Assembly: GCA_009909065.1 (NCBI GenBank)
Contig: JAAANZ010000002.1
Coordinates: 1-64,000 of the forward strand
DNA: 64,000 nucleotides
Reading direction: 5' to 3'
From: Alphaproteobacteria bacterium
Lineage (GTDB): Bacteria; Pseudomonadota; Alphaproteobacteria; Caulobacterales; Hyphomonadaceae
In this document: in pieces, positions 32,024 through 45,589 of the stretch
Position numbering within the stretch: position 1 is the first letter of the stretch
How the letters are laid out: each line of letters starts with the position of its first letter
Notes under the pieces: generated by a model
Database searches by the model: none
Told to the model about the DNA's origin: nothing
What the model saw: the letters and a program-made list of their open reading frames with translations, nothing else
Position numbers and translations under genes: made by a program

Positions 32024-32931
32024 TCAACGCGATGCGGTCAGCTTCCGGCAAACCTCGTCAAGCTGTTCCAGGTCGCGGTATTTGATGCGGAGCTCTCCGC
32101 GGTCCTTCTTGTGACGGATTTCCACGGAAAGCCCCAGCGACCGGGTCAGGTCCGCCTCCAGAGCCTGCGTGTCCACATCCTTTTCCTCGCTGTCCGACGA
32201 CGCGCCGGAGCCGGGTTCGTCGGTCGACTCGCGGGCGCGCCGGGCCAGCGCCTCGACATCGCGAACGCTCAGCCCGCGGCTGATGGCTCGCTCGGCCAGC
32301 GTCTCCGGCTCCGGCGCGGTGAGCAGTGCGCGGGCATGACCGGCCGACAGCCGGCCTTCGCGAAGATGCTCGCGCACCGCTTCCGGCAGGGCGAGCAGGC
32401 GCAACGTGTTGGCAATATGCGCCCGGCTCTTTCCGACACTCTCGGCAAGCCCCTCCTGGGTCCGGCCGAAACGCTTCATCAGGGCATCATAAGCCTCGGC
32501 CTCCTCGACCGGATTGAGATCGGTGCGCTGCACATTCTCGATGATGCCGACTTCGAGCAGCGCCAGCTCGTCCATGTCCCTGACGACGGCCGGGATGTGG
32601 CTCAGCCCGGCGCGCTTGGCCGCACGCCAGCGCCGCTCACCGGCAACGATCTGGTATTGGCCCGGCGCCTTCGGATCGGGCCGCAAGAGGATGGCCTGGA
32701 GCACGCCGCGCGTGCGAATGGATTCGGCCAGTTCATCGAGCGCGGCTTCATTGAAGACCTGTCTCGGCTGGCCCGGGTTGGCCCGGATATCCGTTACGGC
32801 GACCTCGCTGGCCGCCGCCTCAGGTGTGCCCGATTCGTCATCGCCGGCCGGTGCAACCGCCTCGACCTCGCCGATCAGCGAGGACAGTCCGCGTCCGAGC
32901 CGGCTGGGTTTCGACTTTCCTGCATCTGCCG

Positions 32932-32935
<4 letters not shown>
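32024..32935 (-). CDS. parB: chromosome-partitioning protein ParB
   Basis: A 303-residue CTPase. The C motif GERRWRA (99-105) binds CTP phosphates, NPVEEAEAY begins the HTH region and the final 40 residues form the dimer domain (EIRHKKDRGELRIKYRDLEQL). The N-terminal SRLGRGLSSLIGE is the conserved ParA-stimulating peptide. ParB loads at parS and spreads as a clamp to form the segregation complex. Its start overlaps the parA stop by 4 bases. Three matching parS sites lie 1.4-3.7 kb away. Confidence 0.98.
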
Positions 32936-33736
<801 letters not shown>

Positions 33737-33744
<8 letters not shown>

Positions 33745-34369
33745 GGCGTATGACCTCCGAGATTTTGAGGATCGCGCCCTCGCGATGGGTGCGACTCACT
33801 ATCGCCTCACACGTGAAATTCCAACTTTGTTGCGCCGCCGTCAATTCTTCGTGCCATGTTCGGCCCTTGGGAAACAGCGCTATTCCACCATTTTCAAGCC
33901 ATGGCGCAGACAGTTCGAGAAGCCTCGCAAGCGGAGCGACTGCACGTGCCGTGACGATCTGGACGGGCTCCGGCGTCACGGATTCCACCCGCGCGCAGAC
34001 CACCTCGACAGGCAGCCCCGCCGCCGTGGCCGCCGCGCGCAGGTAAGCGCATTTCTTCCCCACGCTCTCAATCAGGGTGATACGCGAATCCCGGCACCTG
34101 TCCGCGGCGATGATGAGGCCGGGAAAGCCGGCCCCCGACCCGAAATCCATTATCCGGGCGCCGGGGGGAATATGGTCGAGCAGCTGCAGGCTGTCAGCGA
34201 CATGGCGCGGCCAGACCTGGGGCCATTCGCGGGGTCCGATCAGATTGATCCGGGCGCGCCAATCATCGAGCGTTTCGATGATCCTTTCTATCCGGCGCGA
34301 TGTTTCACGTGAAACACCGAATTCCGCCAGGATGTCTGCGGAGGCGTCTCGCCTTGTGGCCTCGGGCAT
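33737..34369 (-). CDS. rsmG: 16S rRNA (guanine-527 N7) methyltransferase
   Basis: A 210-residue Rossmann methyltransferase with the SAM motif DFGSGAGFPGL and the family's NLIGPREWPQVWPRHVADSLQLL. It methylates G527 of 16S rRNA. Its start shares one base with the mnmG stop (TAATG). Codons for the residues VSRET near the N-terminus are made of a parS site, so this coding sequence also serves as a partition element. Confidence 0.96.
34301..34316. other. parS site 1 (inside rsmG)
   Basis: TGTTTCACGTGAAACA is the exact bacterial 16-bp parS consensus. It lies in the 5' part of rsmG, about 7.5 kb from the proposed origin. Confidence 0.97.
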
Positions 34370-36237
34370 TACCCCGCCTTCCGCCGGCCCGAGCGGACAT
34401 GGCCAAGTAGTGCGGTCAGCGCCCCGGGCGTGACGCCCTCGATGCGTGCGGCTTGCCCAATCGTGGCGGGACGCACCTGCTCGAGTTTTCCCCGCACCTC
34501 ATTGGACAGACCGCCCACGCGCGAATAATCGATCCCGTCGGGAATCTTCAGCGCCTCGTCGCGGCGCATGGCGGCCACATCTTCCGCCTGCCTCGTAATA
34601 TAGCCTGCATATTGAGCCTCGATCTCCATCTGGCGACGGACCGGCTCGCCCACACGGGCCAGGTCCGGCCAGGCCGATACGAGATTCTCGAAACACATTT
34701 CGGGATAGGCGAGGTAATCCATGGCCGAGCGCTTGCGCCCGTCCTGATTGACCCGCCAGCCATGTTTCGCAGCCTCGGAGGGCGCCATGACATACGCATG
34801 AAGTTTTTCGCGCGCCTCGGCCAGAGCCGTATGTTTCACGTGAAACGACTCGCGGCGGCTCTGGCCGAGGATTCCCCATTCCTCGCCGCGCGGAGTCAGG
34901 CGCTGGTCGGCATTATCGGCCCGCAGGGCAAGCCGGTATTCCGCGCGCGAGGTGAACATGCGATAAGGCTCGGTCACGCCGCGCGTGACAAGATCGTCGA
35001 TCAGAACGCCGATATAGGCTTCAGCCCGGTCGAGCGTGGCGACCGGCTGCCCGGCCACATGGCGCGCGGCGTTCAGCCCGGCCATCAGGCCTTGCGCGCC
35101 GGCCTCCTCATAGCCCGTGGTGCCATTGATCTGCCCGGCCAGGAAAAGTCCGCAAGCGGCCTTGAGTTCGAGGCCCGGCGACAGCGCCCTCGGATCAACA
35201 TAATCATATTCGATCGCGTATCCGTATTGCAGGATCTGCGCATTGGCCAGCGCTGGAATGGTTTCCAGGAAGGCGCGCTGGATCTCCTCGGGAAGCGAGG
35301 TCGAGATGCCGTTCGGATATACCGTGTCGTCCTCGAGCCCCTCGGGCTCGAGAAAGACCTGGTGGCGGTCCCGATCGCCGAACCGGTGGACCTTGTCCTC
35401 GATGGACGGGCAGTATCGTGGGCCCCGCCCGGCAATCGCGCCGGAATAGACCGCCGACTTTCCGAGATTGTCAAAAATTACCTGGTGCGTTTGCGCATTG
35501 GTATGGGTGATACCGCAGGCGATTTGCGGAACCGTGATCGCGTCCGTCAGCTCCGAAAACGGGATCGGATCATCGTCGGCCGGCTGCATCTCGCAGGCGT
35601 CCCAGTCAATCGTGCGGCCATCCAGCCGCGCCGGCGTGCCCGTCTTCAGCCGGCCCATGGGAAGGCCGAGCCCATAGAGGCGGTCGGAAAGACCCGTCGC
35701 CGGCTGCTCGCCCGCACGGCCGGCGGGGATGCGCCGCTCTCCGATATGGATCAGCCCCTTGAGGAAGGTTCCCGTGGTGATGACCACCGCGCCGGCTTGG
35801 TAGGCTTGCCCGCCCTGTCCGATCACGCCCCGGGTCTGCCCGGCCTCCATGAGGATATCCTCTACACCATCCTCTATCACCGTGAGGCCGGGATGGTTGA
35901 AGATCTCCGCCTGCATGGCCTGGCGGTAAAGCGAACGATCCATCTGGGCGCGTGGACCCCGTACAGCCGGCCCCTTCGAGCGGTTCAGCATGCGGAACTG
36001 GATCCCTGCCCGATCGGCCACCCGGGCCATCAGTCCGTCCAGCGCGTCGATCTCGCGGACCAGATGGCCTTTCCCGAGGCCCCCGATCGCCGGGTTGCAG
36101 GACATTTCGCCGATCGTGGCGCATTTGTGGGTGATGAGCGCCGTGCGCGCCCCCGCCCGTGCCGCGGCTGAAGCCGCCTCACAGCCGGCATGTCCACCGC
36201 CCACGACGATCACATCGAAGTCTTGTGTCTGCGTCAT
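34369..36237 (-). CDS. mnmG: tRNA uridine-34 cmnm5 modification enzyme, FAD subunit
   Basis: A 622-residue flavoprotein with [12 protein letters not shown] (FAD Rossmann loop) at the start, [24 protein letters not shown], and the C-terminal [24 protein letters not shown] region. With MnmE it installs the carboxymethylaminomethyl group on U34 of certain tRNAs. It lies 73 bases after mnmE and carries a parS site in the segment coding SFHVKH. Confidence 0.98.
34832..34847. other. parS site 2 (inside mnmG)
   Basis: TGTTTCACGTGAAACG differs from the palindromic consensus only in its last base. It is in the 3' half of mnmG. Confidence 0.92.
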
Positions 36238-36310
36238 TCCCGAGGCATTCCTGTCACGTCAGCTCAGCCTTGTTATACGCGCTGCTATATAGTCGCGAAA
36301 AGGTGCGCCG

Positions 36311-37651
36311 TCACTTGCCGATACAGAAACGTGAGAACACCTCACCAAGCACCTCTTCCACGCCGATGCTCCCGAGCAGCTGGGAAAGCGCCCGGATCGC
36401 CAGGCGGATCTCTTCGGCCGCCAATTCCGCAAACCCTCCGCGCTCCAGTATTGCGCCGGCCTCTGCAAGATGCTCACGCGCCTCGGCTAACCGCTCGCGG
36501 TGGCGGCGGCGCGTGATCAATGGCGGCGGCTGGTCCGCGGTGCGCTCGGGGATGAGGACCATGAGACGTTTGACAAGCGTGTCCATCCCCTCGCCCGTCA
36601 ATGCCGATACTCTCAGTGTTTCACGTGAAACATCCGGAGGCGGGACCAGATCGGCCTTGTTCAAGACGACAAGATCCCCCGGCCGGGGCGACACCGCTTC
36701 CGATGCGGCACCGTCCGCAGCCGGCCTCGAGCCGTCCAGTACGAACAGACGCAAATCCGCCGACTCGGCCGCGGCCCGCGCCCGGCGCATCCCCTCAGCT
36801 TCGATCACATCCTCGCTTTCACGCAGGCCTGCGGTATCCTGCAGCCAGACGAGGTGGCCACCAAGGTCGAGCCGCACCTCGACGACATCCCGCGTCGTGC
36901 CCGGCCTGTCGGTCACGATAGCGGCATCGCGGCCGGCCAGACGATTGAGCAGGCTGGACTTGCCGGCATTGGGCGCCCCGATAATGGCGATGCGAAATCC
37001 GTCACGCACCTTTTCGCCCAGGGCGCCATCGTCGAGCGCTCGGGTCAATTCCGTGTGCAAATGGCCGATTCGCTGGCGCACATCCCCATGGGCATACCCC
37101 GGCGCCTCCTCCTCATCAGGAAAATCAACCGCCACCTCGACCAGTGCCAGCGCTTCAAGCAGGATCCGGCGCCACTCGGAAAACTTGCCGGAAAGATGAC
37201 CGGAAAGCTGGCGATAGGCCTGCTCTCTCTGCGCCCGCGTTTCGGCATCGATAAGGTCGGCGATGCCTTCAGCCTGAGTCAGGTCCAGTTTGCCCGCCTC
37301 GAAGGCGCGCCGGGTGAATTCGCCAGGCTCCGCCAGCCGCACCCCGCCAGCCGACAGGAGGCTGTCCATCGCATCCTCCACCACCGCGCGGCCGCCATGC
37401 AGATAAAGTTCGAGGATATCCTCACCGGTATAGCTCGCCGGCCCGGGAAACCAGGCGGCCAGCCCGTCATCGATAACCGCGCCTTCCGGGTCAACAAGGC
37501 TCGCCCGGGTCATGTGCCTCGCCGAAATGCGGCTAGGCTCCAGCCTTGTTTCCATGACGCCCCTGACGGCCGGCCCGGAAATCCGGATAACGGCGATTGC
37601 ACAGGGCGGCGCGCCCGAGGCCAATGCACAGATCGTGTCCTGGTTTGCCAT
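36311..37651 (-). CDS. mnmE: tRNA modification GTPase
   Basis: A 446-residue protein with an N-terminal formyl-THF-binding domain (DTICALASG start; GEFTRRAFEAGKLDLTQAE), a G domain with GAPNAGKSS as P loop, DTAGLR and NKAD, and the conserved C-terminal FCIGK. It partners MnmG in wobble-uridine modification. ATG 37651 gives MANQDTICALASG, aligning with the family; an in-frame GTG at 37678 would add nine residues. It follows rho by 40 bases. A third parS is in the codons for VSRET. Confidence 0.97.
   Translation of the reverse strand: MANQDTICALASGAPPCAIAVIRISGPAVRGVMETRLEPSRISARHMTRASLVDPEGAVIDDGLAAWFPGPASYTGEDILELYLHGGRAVVEDAMDSLLSAGGVRLAEPGEFTRRAFEAGKLDLTQAEGIADLIDAETRAQREQAYRQLSGHLSGKFSEWRRILLEALALVEVAVDFPDEEEAPGYAHGDVRQRIGHLHTELTRALDDGALGEKVRDGFRIAIIGAPNAGKSSLLNRLAGRDAAIVTDRPGTTRDVVEVRLDLGGHLVWLQDTAGLRESEDVIEAEGMRRARAAAESADLRLFVLDGSRPAADGAASEAVSPRPGDLVVLNKADLVPPPDVSRETLRVSALTGEGMDTLVKRLMVLIPERTADQPPPLITRRRHRERLAEAREHLAEAGAILERGGFAELAAEEIRLAIRALSQLLGSIGVEEVLGEVFSRFCIGK
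36617..36632. other. parS site 3 (inside mnmE)
   Basis: TGTTTCACGTGAAACA is an exact consensus parS in the second half of mnmE. It is the closest of the three to the proposed origin, about 5.2 kb away. Confidence 0.97.
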
Positions 37652-37691
37652 CTCCACCGGTGCGTTTTGCCCGGTCACCCGGGAAGCCGCC

Positions 37692-38981
37692 CTAATTCTT
37701 CATCGCTTCGAAGAATTCATCGTTCGTCTTGGTCTGGCGCAACTTGTCCAGCAGGAATTCAATCGCATCGGAGGTGCCCATCGGATTGAGGATGCGGCGC
37801 AGAATGAACATCTTCTGCAGCTGTTCCTTCGGCGTTATCAGCTCTTCCTTGCGGGTGCCGGATTTCATGATGTCGATGGCCGGGAAGACGCGCTTGTCGG
37901 CCACTTTCCGGTCCAGCACGATTTCGCAGTTGCCGGTGCCCTTGAATTCCTCGAAAATGACCTCGTCCATTCGAGAGCCCGTCTCGATAAGAGCCGTCGA
38001 GATGATGGTCAGCGACCCGCCATTCTCGATATTACGGGCCGCGCCGAAAAACCGCTTTGGTCTCTGGAGCGCATTCGCGTCGACACCCCCTGTGAGCACC
38101 TTGCCGGAACTCGGCACGGTCGTGTTGTAGGCGCGCCCGAGACGCGTGATGGAATCCAGCAGGATGACCACGTCGCGGCCATGCTCGGCCAGGCGTTTGG
38201 CCTTTTCTATGACCATTTCGGACACCTGGACATGGCGCGTCGCCGGCTCGTCAAAGGTTGACGAAATCACCTCGCCCTTCACTGTGCGTTTCATGTCCGT
38301 CACTTCCTCGGGCCGCTCATCGATGAGCAGCACCAGAAGATAGCATTCGGGATGATTCTCCTCGATCGACTTGGCAATGTTCTGAAGCAAGACCGTCTTG
38401 CCCGTACGCGGCGGCGCAACGATCAGCGCCCGCTGGCCCTTGCCGATCGGAGAGACGATATCGATCACCCGGCCCGAACGGTCCTTTCGCGTCGGGTCGT
38501 CGGTTTCCATGCCCAGCCGCTCCTCGGGATAAAGCGGCGTCAGATTGTCGAAATGAACCTTCTGGCGAGCCTTCTCCGGCTCCTCGAAATTGATCGTCGT
38601 GACATCGGTCAGTGCGAAATAGCGCTCGTTTTCACGTGGTTCCGTGATCCTGCCCTCGACCGTATCGCCCGTGCGAAGGCCGGCCTTCTTGAGAACCTGC
38701 GGGCTGACATAGATGTCGTCAGGCCCGGGCAGATAATTCGACTCCGGCGAGCGCAGAAAGCCGAACCCATCCGACAGAACTTCAAGCACCCCGGCGCCGA
38801 TGATCTCGACATCGCGCTCGGCCAGTTCCTTGAGAATGGCAAAGAGCATGTCCTGCGTGCGCAGGGAGGACGCGTTCTCCACCTCCAACTCCTCGGCATA
38901 ATGAAGGAGTTCTGTCGGCGATTTCGCTTTCAGGTCGCGTAGCGCCACGTGGGTGACGTGATCGAAAGACGTGTCAGGCAT
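37692..38981 (-). CDS. rho: transcription termination factor Rho
   Basis: A 429-residue hexameric RNA helicase. The N-terminal RNA-binding fold includes [22 protein letters not shown], Walker A is in VAPPRTGKT (about 188-196), the R-loop region reads [13 protein letters not shown], and the Q-loop segment is [22 protein letters not shown]. It terminates untranslated transcripts. ATG 38981, preceded by GGGA, gives a length near the usual 420; the frame is open for 41 more codons upstream. Confidence 0.98.
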
Positions 38982-39134
38982 GGGTCCCGGAATATGAAGA
39001 TGCGGCGCCGAAAAGGAATTGTCGGGCCGGGGTTCGGCGTGGGCGTTCACGAAAACACTCCGACGCGATATCCTGTTATGTGAGCAGAGGCTTTCTTGCG
39101 TCAAGCAAAGATTTCACGACACGCAAGGGCCGGT

Positions 39135-39572
39135 TCAAAAGCCCGGTTTGAGGATCGCCAGAAAGACAACGCCGATCATCAGGACGAAGGGCAACTCATT
39201 CATCATCCGCAGGCGCTTTTCCGAAACGCCCGCGCCGCCGGCATCGACCTTCTTGCCCACGGAGATGATAAAGCCATGAATGCCCGAGAGCACGAGCACC
39301 AACACGAGCTTGATCTGGAACCAGGTCTGCGACAGGAGCGTCCAGCCGCCCATCCAGATCATGGCGATACCGAGGATCCAGACGAAAATGAGCGCCGGAT
39401 TGAGGATGATAAGGCGCAGCCGCCGGCTCGCCTCGCGCATCGTCTCGAACAGGGGTTCACCCGGCCGGGCCGAGAGTTGGTAGATCCGCAGGCGCGGCGC
39501 CATGAGCAATCCGGCCATCAGGGCAATCACGAAAACGACATGTGTCGCTTTCACGAGCAGATACCCGCTCAT
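39135..39572 (-). CDS. hemJ: HemJ-type protoporphyrinogen IX oxidase
   Basis: A 145-residue four-helix membrane protein of the HemJ/UPF0093 family. The conserved His is in KATHVVFVIALMAGLL, and the KLVLVLVLSGIHGF helix carries the second conserved His. It oxidises protoporphyrinogen IX in heme synthesis. Its start overlaps the hemH stop by 4 bases, giving hemE-hemH-hemJ as one heme operon. In many alphaproteobacteria hemJ replaces hemG/hemY. Confidence 0.9.
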   Translation of the reverse strand: MSGYLLVKATHVVFVIALMAGLLMAPRLRIYQLSARPGEPLFETMREASRRLRLIILNPALIFVWILGIAMIWMGGWTLLSQTWFQIKLVLVLVLSGIHGFIISVGKKVDAGGAGVSEKRLRMMNELPFVLMIGVVFLAILKPGF

Positions 39573-40615
39573 GGGGCGGCCTCGCGCGCAAAGGGGCAAT
39601 CGCCATATTCCGTCGGACACAGCCGCCCACCCTCGCAGGACCGCAGGCGGGCATCAGCCGACAGCGTGGCCAGCGTCTCGTCGGCCAGCGCCTTGATGAA
39701 TAACGCATCCGTGCCGAGCGCCGGGACGGTATGGTAACCCTGAGCCCCGTTTGCCTCGGCGACTTCCCTGTATTCCTCACCAAGTTCGACGAGGGTTTCG
39801 ATGTGTTCGGACACGAAGGCGACCGGCGCGATCAGGATAGTCTTGCCGTCCACGGCGGCGGCGCGCACCTCTTCCTCCGTGTCCGGCCCGATCCATTTGA
39901 GGGGGCCCACGCGCGACTGATAGCAAACCTGGGTCTCCCAGTCGGAGGGCAGTTTTTCCACGAGCCGCCGGGTCATCTCCTCGACCTGGTACTGGTAGGG
40001 ATCGCCCTTCTTCACGACGCTTTCGGGCAGGCCGTGGGCCGACATCAGGAGTTTCACATTTCCCGGCTCTCCGGCGCTTTTCCAGCAATCCAGGATCCGG
40101 CGGGCATGCGCCTCTATGAAATCGCCATTGAACGGATAGCAACACAAGGTGCGCACTTGCCCCTCATAGACTTTTGCCCATTCCCCGAGACTCGAACCGG
40201 TGGTGGTGGACGAGAATTGCGGATAAAGTGGCAGGAGGATCACTTCGTCCGGTGACCAGGCGCGCACCGCTTCGGCCGCTTCATGCGTGAAGGGATGCCA
40301 GTAGCGCATGGCGATGAAAGCCCTGAATTCATCCTCCGGAGCGCGCGCCCGCAGCTCGGCCACCAGCGCCTCGGCCTGGTCCTCCGTCTCCGGCAGAAGC
40401 GGTGAGCCCCCGCCCGGCTGGTCCATCATCGCGTAATTCTCCCGCACGGCCGGCGCCCGGGTGCGCGAGATGAAGCGTGACAGCAGGAACCGCACGGGGG
40501 ATGGCGCCCGGATGATGGCCGGGTCCTTGAACAGGTTCTCCAGGAAGGGCCGGATATTCTCCTGCCGATCCGGGCCGCCCAGATTGAACAGCACCAGAGC
40601 GATGCGTCGTCCCAT
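39569..40615 (-). CDS. hemH: ferrochelatase with probable [2Fe-2S] cysteines
   Basis: A 348-residue enzyme that inserts iron into protoporphyrin IX. The catalytic His is in LLMSAHGLPESVVKKGDPY, and APVAFVSEHIETLVELGEEY is the second signature. The C-terminus has Cys327, Cys333 and Cys340, and there is an internal Cys pair at 158-159. Ferrochelatases of Caulobacter and mycobacteria bind a [2Fe-2S] cluster with one internal and three C-terminal Cys, so a cluster is likely here. It lies 29 bases after hemE. Confidence 0.97.
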   Translation of the reverse strand: MGRRIALVLFNLGGPDRQENIRPFLENLFKDPAIIRAPSPVRFLLSRFISRTRAPAVRENYAMMDQPGGGSPLLPETEDQAEALVAELRARAPEDEFRAFIAMRYWHPFTHEAAEAVRAWSPDEVILLPLYPQFSSTTTGSSLGEWAKVYEGQVRTLCCYPFNGDFIEAHARRILDCWKSAGEPGNVKLLMSAHGLPESVVKKGDPYQYQVEEMTRRLVEKLPSDWETQVCYQSRVGPLKWIGPDTEEEVRAAAVDGKTILIAPVAFVSEHIETLVELGEEYREVAEANGAQGYHTVPALGTDALFIKALADETLATLSADARLRSCEGGRLCPTEYGDCPFAREAAP

Positions 40616-40644: not shown

Positions 40645-41682
40645 CTAGCCGTCTCGCAGGCAGCTGACCACGGTTTCGACATTGCTGATCGGCGTGTCCG
40701 GAAGAACTCCGTGACCGAGATTGAAGATATGGGGGCGGCCCCGGTAGGCGGCGACAATCTCACGCGTGCGTGCGACAAGTTGCTCGCCGCCCGCGCGCAG
40801 AAGGAGCGGGTCGAGATGACCCTGGACCGGAAAATCCGCCGGCAGGGAGGCATTCACATGCGCAGGCACGGCTGACGTATCGAGGCCGACTGCGCTCACG
40901 CCGGTCTGATCGGCATATTCCGCAAGCATCGCCCCGGCCCCTCGCGGAAAGCCTATGATCGGCAGGGTGACGCCAAGTTCGCGCAACCGCGAGACCAGCC
41001 GGGCGGTCGGGGAAATGATGATTTTCCGGAACACATCATCGGCCAATCCTTCGGCCCAGCTGTCAAAGATCATCAGGGCATCGGCCCCGGCCTCGGCCTG
41101 TGCCAGCATGTAGCGCGCCGTCGCCTCGCTCATCAGTTCAAGGGCACGCCCCAGATCATCGGGGCGCGTGTAGACCCAGCTGCGGGCCTCGTTCTTGTCG
41201 GTTTTTCCGCGACCCTCGATGGCATAAATCAGTACGGTCCAAGGCGCGCCGGCAAACCCGATCAAGGATGTCGCGGGCGATAATTGCGACTTCACCCGGG
41301 AGACCGTTTCACTGACCGGGGCCAGCCGGTCGGCGACGGCGCTGAGCGGGACGGTATCAAGGTCGCCCGGGCCGCCGATTGTCTCGACAATCGGGCCGAT
41401 GCCCTTCTCGAACCGCACGCCCCGCCCCATCGCATCAAGGATGAGCAGGATGTCGGCGAAAAGGATTGCGCCATCCATGCCATACCGTTTGACCGGTTGA
41501 AGCGTTGCCTCGGCTGCCATGCTCGGCGTGTAGCAGAAATCGAGGAAATCCCGCGCCCGGCTGCGAAGCTCGAGATATTCCGGCAGGTGCCGGCCAGCCT
41601 GGCGCATCATCCAGACCGGGGGCCTTTTGTGTATCTCCCCGCCGAGCGTGCGGATGAGTTTCGGTGTGCCGCGAGCAGCCAT
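40645..41682 (-). CDS. hemE: uroporphyrinogen decarboxylase
   Basis: A 345-residue TIM barrel with PPVWMMRQAGRHLPEYLELR at the substrate site and GFAGAPWTVLIYAIEG. It decarboxylates four acetates of uroporphyrinogen III. GGAAG precedes the ATG. It is the gene bordering the proposed origin; in Caulobacter the origin also overlaps the hemE promoter region, linking its transcription to replication control. Confidence 0.98.
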   Translation of the reverse strand: MAARGTPKLIRTLGGEIHKRPPVWMMRQAGRHLPEYLELRSRARDFLDFCYTPSMAAEATLQPVKRYGMDGAILFADILLILDAMGRGVRFEKGIGPIVETIGGPGDLDTVPLSAVADRLAPVSETVSRVKSQLSPATSLIGFAGAPWTVLIYAIEGRGKTDKNEARSWVYTRPDDLGRALELMSEATARYMLAQAEAGADALMIFDSWAEGLADDVFRKIIISPTARLVSRLRELGVTLPIIGFPRGAGAMLAEYADQTGVSAVGLDTSAVPAHVNASLPADFPVQGHLDPLLLRAGGEQLVARTREIVAAYRGRPHIFNLGHGVLPDTPISNVETVVSCLRDG

Positions 41683-41822
41683 GGTGCGTCTTCCAATTCA
41701 GACGGTCTGAGCCGGTGATTATGATTATTAAGCGGTGACATCTGGGGACAAGGCCACCCAGGCCCAATTGTCAACGCTGTTGCACCGGGTTTCAACAGGT
41801 CGCGGATCGCAGCCGGGGGGCG

Positions 41823-41837
41823 TTAACCATCTGTAAA
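41823..41837 (+). promoter_or_regulatory. CtrA-like binding site
   Basis: TTAA-CCATCTG-TAAA matches the CtrA pattern TTAA-N7-TTAA at 7 of 8 defined bases and contains the extended half-site TTAACCAT. CtrA blocks initiation by binding origin sites in Caulobacter. Confidence 0.55.
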
Positions 41838-41921
41838 CCCTGCGTGAAACGCCCGAAAAAGAGACTTCGGCCCACAGGGGAAAACGAAACGTGATCCGCG
41901 CAGGCGGAAAGGCGCGATTTG

Positions 41922-41936
41922 TGAATGTTTTGTTAA
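41922..41936 (-). promoter_or_regulatory. second CtrA-like site
   Basis: On the minus strand this reads TTAA-CAAAACA-TTCA, 7 of 8 defined bases. It partly overlaps a DnaA-box near-match (TGTGAATGT, 41920-41928). Confidence 0.45.
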
Positions 41937-41965
41937 CGAATGAGGACACCCGGATCCATCAACAG

Positions 41966-41974
41966 CGATCCACA
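41966..41974 (+). promoter_or_regulatory. DnaA G-box-like site
   Basis: CGATCCACA matches 8 of 9 positions of TGATCCACA, the moderate-affinity DnaA site used in the Caulobacter origin. A weaker form, TGATCCGCG, is at 41892-41900. Confidence 0.5.
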
Positions 41975-42044
41975 GGTCTTGCGGCGCGGGGGTCGGCCAT
42001 GCACAACACGCTTTTGCGAAACTGAGTGGAGCGGCCCGGTTCCG

Positions 42045-42866
42045 ATGCGTCTGTCCGTCTATTTCAATGTCCATCTGGTCTCGGACTCCACCGGCGAGAC
42101 GCTGAATGCGGTGATGCGGGCGGCTACGGCCCAGTTCGAGCGGGTCCAGGCCCTGGAGCACAATTACTATCTCGTCCGGTCGGAAAAACAGCTTGCCCGG
42201 GTGATGCGGGAGATCGAGGGGGCTCCCGGGCTTGTCTGGTATACGCTCGCCGATGAGGAGCTCAGGGCCAGTCTCGAAGCCCAGTGCCGGGCTGCCGGGA
42301 TCCCGACCCTGCCGGTCCTCGACCCGGCCGTCCATATGCTCAGCCGTCATCTCGGCATTGTTGCCAGTGAGCGGGTGGCGGGCCAGCATTCGCTGAACCA
42401 GGAATATTTTGACCGCATCGAGGCGGTCGATTTCGCCCTGCGCCATGATGACGGGCAGAATGTCGAAGGGCTGAAACAGGCCGATGTCGTGCTGGTCGGC
42501 GTGAGCCGCACCTCGAAGACGCCAACCTGTGTTTATCTGGCCAACCGGGGCATCCGGGCGGGCAATATCCCGTTGGTCCCGGGGCTGGCGCCTCCGCCGA
42601 CGCTGATGGAACTCAAGCGGCCCATGGTTGTCGGACTGAAGATCAGCGCCGAACGTCTTGTCCAGATTCGCCGCCAACGGCTGATGTCGCTGCGTGAAGA
42701 CCAGGACACCGATTATGCCGATGAAGAAGCTGTCCGTTCCGAGGTCACGCAGGCCAACCGACTTTTCCAGAGGATGAAATGGCCCGTGATCGATGTCTCG
42801 CGGCGCTCCGTGGAGGAAACCGCGGCGGCCATCCTGAACAAGCTGAATGAAAGGCGCCCCATATGA
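42045..42866 (+). CDS. ppsR: DUF299 kinase-phosphorylase (PPDK/PEP synthase regulator)
   Basis: A 273-residue protein with VSDSTGETLNAVMRA near the start and a P-loop-like GVSRTSKTPT. The family adds and removes phosphate on pyruvate phosphate dikinase or PEP synthase; which target applies here is not shown. ATG 42045, after GTGGAG, gives the family start MRLSVYFNVHLVSDSTGE. It heads an operon with maf, aroE, coaE and dnaQ and flanks the proposed origin, as DUF299 does in Caulobacter. Confidence 0.93.
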   Translation: MRLSVYFNVHLVSDSTGETLNAVMRAATAQFERVQALEHNYYLVRSEKQLARVMREIEGAPGLVWYTLADEELRASLEAQCRAAGIPTLPVLDPAVHMLSRHLGIVASERVAGQHSLNQEYFDRIEAVDFALRHDDGQNVEGLKQADVVLVGVSRTSKTPTCVYLANRGIRAGNIPLVPGLAPPPTLMELKRPMVVGLKISAERLVQIRRQRLMSLREDQDTDYADEEAVRSEVTQANRLFQRMKWPVIDVSRRSVEETAAAILNKLNERRPI

Positions 42867-43462
42867 GCCAGCCCGCGCTTATCCTGGCCTCGGGCAGTGC
42901 GAGTCGCCGCGCCCTCCTGGACAATGCCGGCATCGAGGCGCAGGCAGTTCGCCCGAACCTGGACGAGGAAACGGCCCGGGCGGGGATGCGTGCGGAGGGC
43001 ATCAGTGTGCGCGACCAGGCGGTTCATCTTGCCGAGCTCAAGGCGCTGAAAGTCTCGTCGGCGCGGCCGGGGCTGGTGGTCGGCGGTGATCAGATGCTGA
43101 ACCTGGATGGCCGGGCCCTCGACAAGCCCGCCGACCTCGCCGAAGCCCGCACACATCTCGAAACCCTGTCGGGCAGGACCCACACGCTGGAAACCGCCCT
43201 TGTCATCTGCGAGGGCGGCACGCCGGTCTGGCGGCATGTGGCACAGCCGCGCCTGACGATGCGCCCCTTGTCCGGCGATTTCATCGATTCCTATCTCGAG
43301 CGGGCCGGCAAAGCGGTCCTGACCACGGTCGGGGCCTACCAGCTCGAAAGCCTCGGCAGCCAGCTCTTTGCCCGGATCGAGGGCGACTATTTCTCCATTC
43401 TCGGAATGCCGCTCCTGGCGCTCATGGATTATTTGCGCACGCGTGGGGTGCTGGCGACATGA
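42863..43462 (+). CDS. maf: Maf family nucleotide pyrophosphatase
   Basis: A 199-residue protein with LASGSASRRALLDNAGI at the N-terminus and VVGGDQMLNLDGR, the conserved acidic loop. Members hydrolyse non-canonical or modified nucleoside triphosphates. The start ATG overlaps the ppsR stop, and its own stop overlaps aroE. Confidence 0.93.
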   Translation: MSQPALILASGSASRRALLDNAGIEAQAVRPNLDEETARAGMRAEGISVRDQAVHLAELKALKVSSARPGLVVGGDQMLNLDGRALDKPADLAEARTHLETLSGRTHTLETALVICEGGTPVWRHVAQPRLTMRPLSGDFIDSYLERAGKAVLTTVGAYQLESLGSQLFARIEGDYFSILGMPLLALMDYLRTRGVLAT

Positions 43463-44280
43463 CCAGGCTGTATGGCGTGATCGGCGATCCTGTAACCCAC
43501 TCCCTGTCGCCTGTGATCCACAGGGGCTGGGCGCGTGACCATGGTCTCGATGCCGATTATCGTGGCCTGCATGTGCCGGCCGAGGCTCTCGGGGACGCGA
43601 TGGGCACTTTCGAGAGACAGGGCGTGAAGGGTCTCAACGTGACCCTGCCGCACAAACAGGCCGTCATGGAGCATTGCGAGTCGATCTCGCCGCTTGCGCG
43701 CCGCATCGGCGCTGTGAACACGCTGTCGCTTCAGTCCGGCGGCGCCTGGCGCGGTGACAATACCGATTATCACGGCTTTCTGGAGGACCTTTCAGAGACC
43801 TGGCCGGCCGGCCTCAGGGGCCGTCGCATTCGTGTCCTGGGGGCGGGCGGCGCAGCGCGGGCGGTTCTGCTGGCCCTGCACGAGGCGGGGGCCCGGCTCG
43901 ATATTGCCAATCGCACGCCTGCCCGCGCTCAGGCCCTGGCGGCCGACCTCCAGCTGCCGGGCACGCCTGTCCTGGGACTGGAGGAGGGCCTGGCTGACCT
44001 CGCGGGCGTCGAACTGGTGGTCAATTGTCTCAGCCTCGGCCATTCCGGGGCGGGACTGGCTCTGCCCGCTGGGGAGGGACGCCCGTTCTATGATATCTCC
44101 TATGGCCCGGCCAGCCGCCGGGTCCTGGGCCCGGCCGAAGCTGCGGGGTGGAAAACGGCGGACGGGCTCGGCATGCTGGTCGCCCAGGCCGCGCTGTCCT
44201 TCGAGATCTGGTTTGCCATCCGGCCCGATCGTGAAGCGGCCCTGCGGCGCTGCCGCGCCGCATTGGAGGCGGCACAATGA
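43459..44280 (+). CDS. aroE: shikimate 5-dehydrogenase
   Basis: A 273-residue NADP enzyme. The catalytic Lys is in NVTLPHKQ, with shikimate contacts in [11 protein letters not shown] and [20 protein letters not shown] is the nucleotide loop and [10 protein letters not shown] the NADP 2'-phosphate contact. It reduces 3-dehydroshikimate in aromatic amino-acid synthesis. Both ends overlap neighbours by 4 bases. Confidence 0.97.
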
Positions 44281-44888
44281 AAATACTCGGGCTGACCGGT
44301 TCCATCGGTATGGGAAAATCGGCGACGGCGGCGATGTTCCGCGAGGAAGGCATTCCGGTCTATGATGCCGATGCGGCCGTGCACGCAATCTATGCGCCCG
44401 GCGGCGCGGCCGTCCAGCCTCTGGAGGCGGCCTTTCCCGGCGTGACCGCACCGGATGGAGGCATCGACCGGGCCCGCCTGCGCGAGCGTGTCCTCGACGA
44501 CAAGGCGGCGCTCGACCGTCTGAACGCGATTGTCCACCCGCTTGTGGGCCAGAGCCAGATTGATTTTCGCGAGGAGGCGCAGGCGGCGGGCGCGGCCTTC
44601 GCCGTACTCGACATCCCGCTGCTTTTCGAAACCGGCGGCGACAAGCGCTGCGATCATGTGCTGGTTGTCACCGCGCCGGCCGACGTGCAGCGCGACCGCG
44701 TATTGGCGCGGAGCGGCATGTCGCTCGATGCGTTCGAGGCCATTCTGGCGCGCCAGATGCCGGATGCGGAAAAACGCGCCCGCGCGGATTTCATTCTCAA
44801 TACCGCCTTCGGATTCGACTTTGCGCGTGACATTGTACGCGCCATCATCGCGCTGATGATTCGTTCCAAGGAGGCGGAGAAACAATGA
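44277..44888 (+). CDS. coaE: dephospho-CoA kinase
   Basis: A 203-residue P-loop kinase with [13 protein letters not shown] at the start, [10 protein letters not shown], and [16 protein letters not shown]. It phosphorylates the ribose 3'-OH of dephospho-CoA, the last step of CoA synthesis. It overlaps aroE and dnaQ by 4 bases each. Confidence 0.97.
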
Positions 44889-45589
44889 GCGCCATGATCA
44901 GGGAAATCGCCTTCGATACCGAGACGACGGGCCTCGACCCGGACAAGGGCGACCGTATCATCGAGCTAGGGGCGGTCGAACTGATCAATCATATCCCCAC
45001 AGGCGAGACGTTTCGCATGCTCGTGAATCCCGGCCGTGCGGTGTCGGGCGATACGGTGCGGATCACGGGCATCACCGATGAGATGCTCGCCGGCCAGCCG
45101 CCTTTCGAAGCGCCGATCGTGGTTGACCGTTTCCTGGAATTTGTCGGCGACGCGATGATCATCGCCCACAATGCCAAGTTTGACCGCGGATTCCTCAACA
45201 TGGAGCTGCTTCGGTGCGGTCGCCCCGTGATCGAGGACGCGCGCTGGATCGATACGGCCGCCATGGCGCGCAAGAAATATCCCGGCGCGCCGGCTAGCCT
45301 GGATGCGCTTTGCCGGCGGTTCAATATCTCGCTCGAAAGCCGGACGCTGCATGGCGCGCTGCTCGACTCGCAGCTCCTGGCGGATGTCTATCTGGAGCTT
45401 CTCGGCGGGCGAGCCCGCGCTTTCGAATTCGAAGCGCAGAATACCGGCGGCGGCGAAAACACACGTGCTGCGGCTCGCGCGCGCCCGGCGCCACTCGAAA
45501 GCCGCCTGACATCGGACGAGGCGGCGCGTCACCGCGCCTTTATCGAAACGCTTGGCGAAGAACCGATCTGGATGAAGCACGGCGCGTGA
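44885..45589 (+). CDS. dnaQ: DNA polymerase III epsilon (3'-5' proofreading) subunit
   Basis: A 234-residue DEDDh exonuclease: FDTETTG (Exo I), [14 protein letters not shown] (Exo II) and [15 protein letters not shown] (Exo III with the catalytic His). A linker of about 25 residues follows, then a C-terminal segment that would bind the alpha subunit. It ends the ppsR-maf-aroE-coaE-dnaQ operon. The link of dnaQ with coaE and aroE next to the origin is conserved in alphaproteobacteria. Confidence 0.96.

Follow-up and report, generated by a model that had tools for sequence, protein, structure and literature searches.

A Cori-type chromosomal replication origin predicted between hemE and ppsR in an uncultured member of the Hyphomonadaceae

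The 362-bp spacer between the divergent genes hemE and ppsR, at positions 41683-42044 of the window (the whole 64-kb stretch of DNA analysed here), is very probably the chromosomal replication origin of its source genome and, judged by sequence, the orthologue of the Caulobacter origin Cori. For this family it is the expected place: Cori was mapped experimentally between hemE and COG1806 in Caulobacter (PMC1914354), and published marker-frequency data for Hyphomonas neptunium have their maximum near hemE, about 7 kb from parAB (PMC6650430). The origin type is already known and appears here with divergent DnaA boxes. A likely origin at this site had been proposed in a preliminary description, and the proposal is well supported by gene context, conservation across the family, strand switches in three relatives and the marker frequency of H. 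neptunium. The source genome is a Hyphomonadaceae MAG of 2.49 Mb in 133 contigs, whose nearest named relatives, on which the family assignment is based, are Hyphomonas and further Hyphomonadaceae records; the window covers 64 kb of a 75-kb contig. By comparison, the analysis places the origin of an uncultured lineage in which skew and DnaA-box searches have little power (in H. neptunium, too, neither gave a clear prediction; PMC6650430), and it brings together 36 origins from across the family.

The spacer is intergenic and both of its flanking genes point outward, as at the Caulobacter origin: hemE, encoding uroporphyrinogen decarboxylase, occupies 40645-41682 on the minus strand (TIGR01464, 347.8 bits), and ppsR, a DUF299 (COG1806) gene, occupies 42045-42866 on the plus strand (NF003742, 333.6 bits). 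The ppsR frame also contains an in-frame ATG at 41940, within the spacer (frame 41940-42866); alignment with relatives supports a start at 42045 instead. The gene order parB-parA-rsmG-mnmG-mnmE-rho-hemH-hemE, spacer, ppsR-maf-aroE-coaE-dnaQ includes both conserved Cori-flanking clusters, rsmG to hemH at 33737-40615 (minus strand) and maf to dnaQ at 42863-45589 (plus strand). The expectation that gene orientation would mostly diverge from the spacer holds for these immediate clusters, with hemE to parB wholly on the minus strand and ppsR to dnaQ wholly on the plus strand, but fails farther out, where leuS lies on the plus strand on the left and a TRAP-TAXI gene, rlmH and proA lie on the minus strand on the right. 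Rfam and tRNA scans of the 64-kb window gave no matches.

The same arrangement recurs throughout the family. We found ppsR in 60 of 61 genomes, and each of the 36 family loci read has hemE and ppsR in divergent orientation with 344-397 bp between them. An alignment of the window spacer with the spacers of 22 relatives, all from within the family, revealed a shared plan that begins on the hemE side with an AT-rich GCTTATNATTATTA, followed by TTTGTCC, a TCCACA...CACAG pair and one or two CtrA sites, and continues towards ppsR with TCACAG...GGAAC, an inverted TGTG...TGTGA and finally TCCACA...CACAGG.CTTG. A profile built from the 22 relatives, with the window left out, matches 41714-41983 with E=2.5e-20 (nhmmer) and finds nothing else significant on the 75-kb contig. 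By this measure the window spacer is orthologous to the hemE-ppsR spacers of its relatives, and the conserved plan, rather than any individual motif, is the strongest sequence evidence for the origin.

The partitioning genes and their sites lie where the preliminary description had put them, 5-10 kb from the spacer. The parA gene is at 32932-33744 (ParA-family models) and parB at 32024-32935 (TIGR00180, 194.5 bits), both on the minus strand, and three parS sites, all on the plus strand, lie on the hemE side, 5.1-7.4 kb from the spacer: TGTTTCACGTGAAACA at 34301-34316 and again at 36617-36632, and a site with the exact 14-mer GTTTCACGTGAAAC at 34832-34847. Across the window and its relatives the distance from parS to the spacer is 4-7 kb. 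The GC skew of the window is almost level apart from a slight dip at 40-56 kb, and its KOPS are few and mixed in direction. Because the genome itself is too fragmented (133 contigs) for whole-chromosome skew, strand asymmetry was taken from three complete relatives (G014, G016 and G022), sampled chromosome-wide and then over 400 contiguous kb around the locus. When GC skew is divided into two arms, the best breakpoint, at the sampling used, spans the locus in G014, adjoins it in G016 and misses it by about 24 kb in G022. The fine cumulative-skew minimum lies within 0.2 kb of the spacer for G016; it is 11 kb away in G014 and, on a broad plateau, 78 kb away in G022. The dnaA gene lies about 0.4-0.5 Mb from the locus in all three, and the origin is therefore not dnaA-linked.

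The FtsK-orienting KOPS (GGGNAGGG) are strongly polar in these three chromosomes and change sign in the neighbourhood of the locus. This flip falls on the hemE/parS side of the spacer, at 5-10 kb in G022, 19-20 kb in G016 and 30-42 kb in G014, and all KOPS between the flip and the spacer point the 'wrong' way. A flip located at parS fits G022, where it brackets parS, and was rejected as a general description since in G016 and G014 it lies beyond parS. The offset would suit a functional origin a few to some tens of kilobases away on the parAB side, at the KOPS flip, with the spacer merely a conserved neighbour. We regard such a displaced origin as very unlikely: the position of the flip varies among genera whereas the spacer is conserved, the skew minimum departs from the KOPS by falling at the spacer in G016 and on the side opposite the flip in G014, and mapping in Caulobacter placed Cori in the spacer itself (PMC1914354). 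In Pseudomonas aeruginosa, different processes seem to underlie KOPS bias and GC skew (PMC6199493). The offset is not seen in GC skew, and it therefore reduces only slightly our confidence in placing the origin exactly at the hemE-ppsR spacer. With KOPS polarity and origin offset in this way, the polarity of segregation would be distinct from that of replication.

Within the spacer, the DnaA boxes are imperfect, as the preliminary description had noted in suggesting an unusual origin. The best of them is the G-box-like CGATCCACA (8/9) at 41966-41974 on the plus strand, followed by the conserved GG(N)CTTG. Such 8/9 matches occur 13 times in the window against 11.6 expected, so that the G-box, present as described, was rejected as stand-alone evidence for an origin; the weaker boxes described with it fare better, the spacer containing 12 sites with at most three mismatches to TTATCCACA against 5.4 expected (P=0.003, shuffles). 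With at most two mismatches there are two in the window spacer (P=0.12) and four in each of two genus mates, and most relatives are clearly enriched; TCCACA is present in a single copy. Further sites are predicted, several of them placed by alignment with relatives. On the plus strand these are the degenerate box TTGTCAACG at 41768-41776, which reads TTGTCCACC or TTGTCACC in relatives; GTTTCAACA at 41789-41797, which is CTTCCACA in G002 of the same genus; CCCACAG at 41871-41877, the counterpart of a TCACAG box in many relatives; and CCATCAACA at 41956-41964, where 22 of 22 aligned relatives have CACA. On the minus strand an inverted weak box, ACATTCACA at 41920-41928, is the counterpart of the conserved TGTG, and a W-box-like weak site, TTGTCCCCA with core TCCCCA, is predicted at 41743-41751. 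A scan for DnaA-box clusters gave the spacer z=1.9 on its own contig, which is not outstanding; as a sole origin finder the scan was rejected, for it singled out the spacer in G014 but in neither the window nor G022.

Two CtrA-like motifs had also been described in the spacer, and scanning for TTAA-N7-TTAA with one-mismatch sites counted recovered both on the plus strand: TTAA-N7-TAAA at 41823-41837, in a conserved region, and TGAA-N7-TTAA at 41922-41936, whose GTTAA occupies the position of the inverted TGTGA box in many relatives. Each has one mismatch; at least two such sites per spacer are expected with P=0.001 in dinucleotide shuffles of the spacer, and no other 362-bp stretch of the 75-kb contig holds two. 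The AT-rich stretch noted near hemE corresponds to GATTATGATTATTAAG at 41717-41732 (plus strand), a candidate unwinding element whose position is conserved (GCTTATNATTATTA in relatives), though the AT content is modest, the AT-richest 40-mer of the spacer being merely 60% AT. No match to the IHF consensus with zero or one mismatch was found in the window spacer, which has several with two mismatches, or in the Hyphomonas spacers L032-L037. That the spacer is just a divergent hemE/ppsR promoter region under CtrA control, without origin function in the source species, is very unlikely. In favour of this reading, the spacer has to accommodate the promoters of both genes, promoters too can carry CtrA sites and AT-rich patches, and its DnaA boxes are degenerate. 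Against it stand the family-wide conservation of length and box positions, the Cori-type flanking genes and the start of replication near hemE in H. neptunium (PMC6650430).

For the spacer as an origin, a working model can be drawn from Cori, where DnaA occupies weak boxes cooperatively and is kept off by CtrA (PMC4468827). The source genome encodes DnaA, CtrA, GcrA and a CcrM-type RAMA protein, its CtrA being approximately 78% identical to that of Caulobacter. From these regulator genes, the orthology, gene context and motifs of the spacer and the strand switches of the relatives, we infer DnaA and CtrA binding, unwinding and initiation as follows. DnaA would assemble cooperatively on the few weak boxes, with CGATCCACA at 41966 as a probable anchor, and the assembled DnaA would open the AT-rich element beside hemE. 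In the non-replicating cell, phosphorylated CtrA on the 41823 and 41922 sites would block DnaA, the 41922 site overlapping a box position. ParAB and the nearby parS would then separate the new origins.

The window spacer differs from those of its relatives in two further respects. It contains no GANTC (CcrM) site; relatives' spacers hold up to 12. Loss of CcrM as the cause was rejected, given the RAMA-domain (CcrM-type) protein encoded in the genome. Spacers L014-L019, L024, L026-L028 and L032-L037 have 7-12 GANTC each versus 1.3-1.5 expected, those of the Hyphomonas type often as GAGTCACAG, in which the methylation site is fused to a box-like CACAG, and in G016 and G022 the spacer is the densest GANTC stretch in 400 kb. 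Over the whole window GANTC occurs 128 times where dinucleotide shuffles give 324, a 2.5-fold depletion of the kind described in Alphaproteobacteria that have CcrM. The second difference concerns six positions with CACA (or its complement) in relatives, three of which read AACA in the window: at 41789, at 41956 and, inverted, inside the 41922-41936 CtrA site. TCAAC occurs three times on one strand of the window spacer (P=0.002, shuffles) and at most once in every other spacer, a test that was picked post hoc, after the data had been seen, and that includes one change which also creates a CtrA half-site.

We compared these changes with the DnaA of the source genome (L057; G000:C62:137-1477). 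Aligned to 1j1v, it has GRDHATV in place of the E. coli GRDHTTV and so carries Ala, encoded by GCG (G000:C62:219-244), instead of Thr at residue 435. In a survey of the recognition helix across genomes of the family and order, some genomes gave no match and other matches read DHTT, DHST or DHTS; the second DHAT match occurs only in G006, whose genome also has a DHTTV match elsewhere. In the genus mates G001 and G002 DnaA reads DHTSI, then Tyr at 439, and domain IV is just 41-44% identical to that of the source DnaA, whereas ppsR is 82% identical; from these sequences DnaA looks fast-evolving in the source genus. A coupled change of DnaA and its boxes is plausible, on the evidence of one MAG and one codon, because residue 435 of E. 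coli DnaA makes contact with DNA and the T435M substitution impairs binding to boxes (PMC5742627, PMC7561715), and because in Epsilonproteobacteria, in which Ala is found as well, changes of box specificity have been proposed to stem from variation at 435 and 438-439 (PMC5043019). In its full form, such a change would have shifted initiator and origin together, with an Ala435 DnaA reading AACA- and CACA-type boxes, three conserved box positions going from CACA to AACA, and the CcrM (GANTC) sites lost from the origin; we think this unlikely, and the AACA boxes may instead be the result of plain decay. If true, the coupled change would amount to a naturally occurring shift in the recognition code of an initiator.

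Among known origins, that of Rickettsia prowazekii has the same hemE/COG1806 flanks, together with CtrA and IHF sites (PMC1914354), a likeness of description rather than sequence with an AT-rich genome from a distant order. The origin of H. neptunium, from the same family, resembles the predicted one in its peak close to hemE, in parAB about 7 kb off with parS, and in the lack of a clear prediction from skew and boxes (PMC6650430). The named Hyphomonas spacers L032, L034 and L035, none of them that of H. neptunium, have 10 GANTC and two TCCACA each, versus none and one in the window spacer. Caulobacter crescentus Cori shares with the window spacer the hemE and DUF299/COG1806 flanks, CtrA sites, weak G- and W-type DnaA boxes and an AT-rich stretch (PMC1914354, PMC8959179, PMC4468827). 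Unlike Cori, the window spacer is without GANTC and without an IHF consensus within one mismatch, and it has two recognisable one-mismatch CtrA sites and one G-box-like site compared with five CtrA sites and two G-boxes. In Caulobacter crescentus parS lies a few kilobases from Cori, and the window has its parS sites at a like distance from the spacer.
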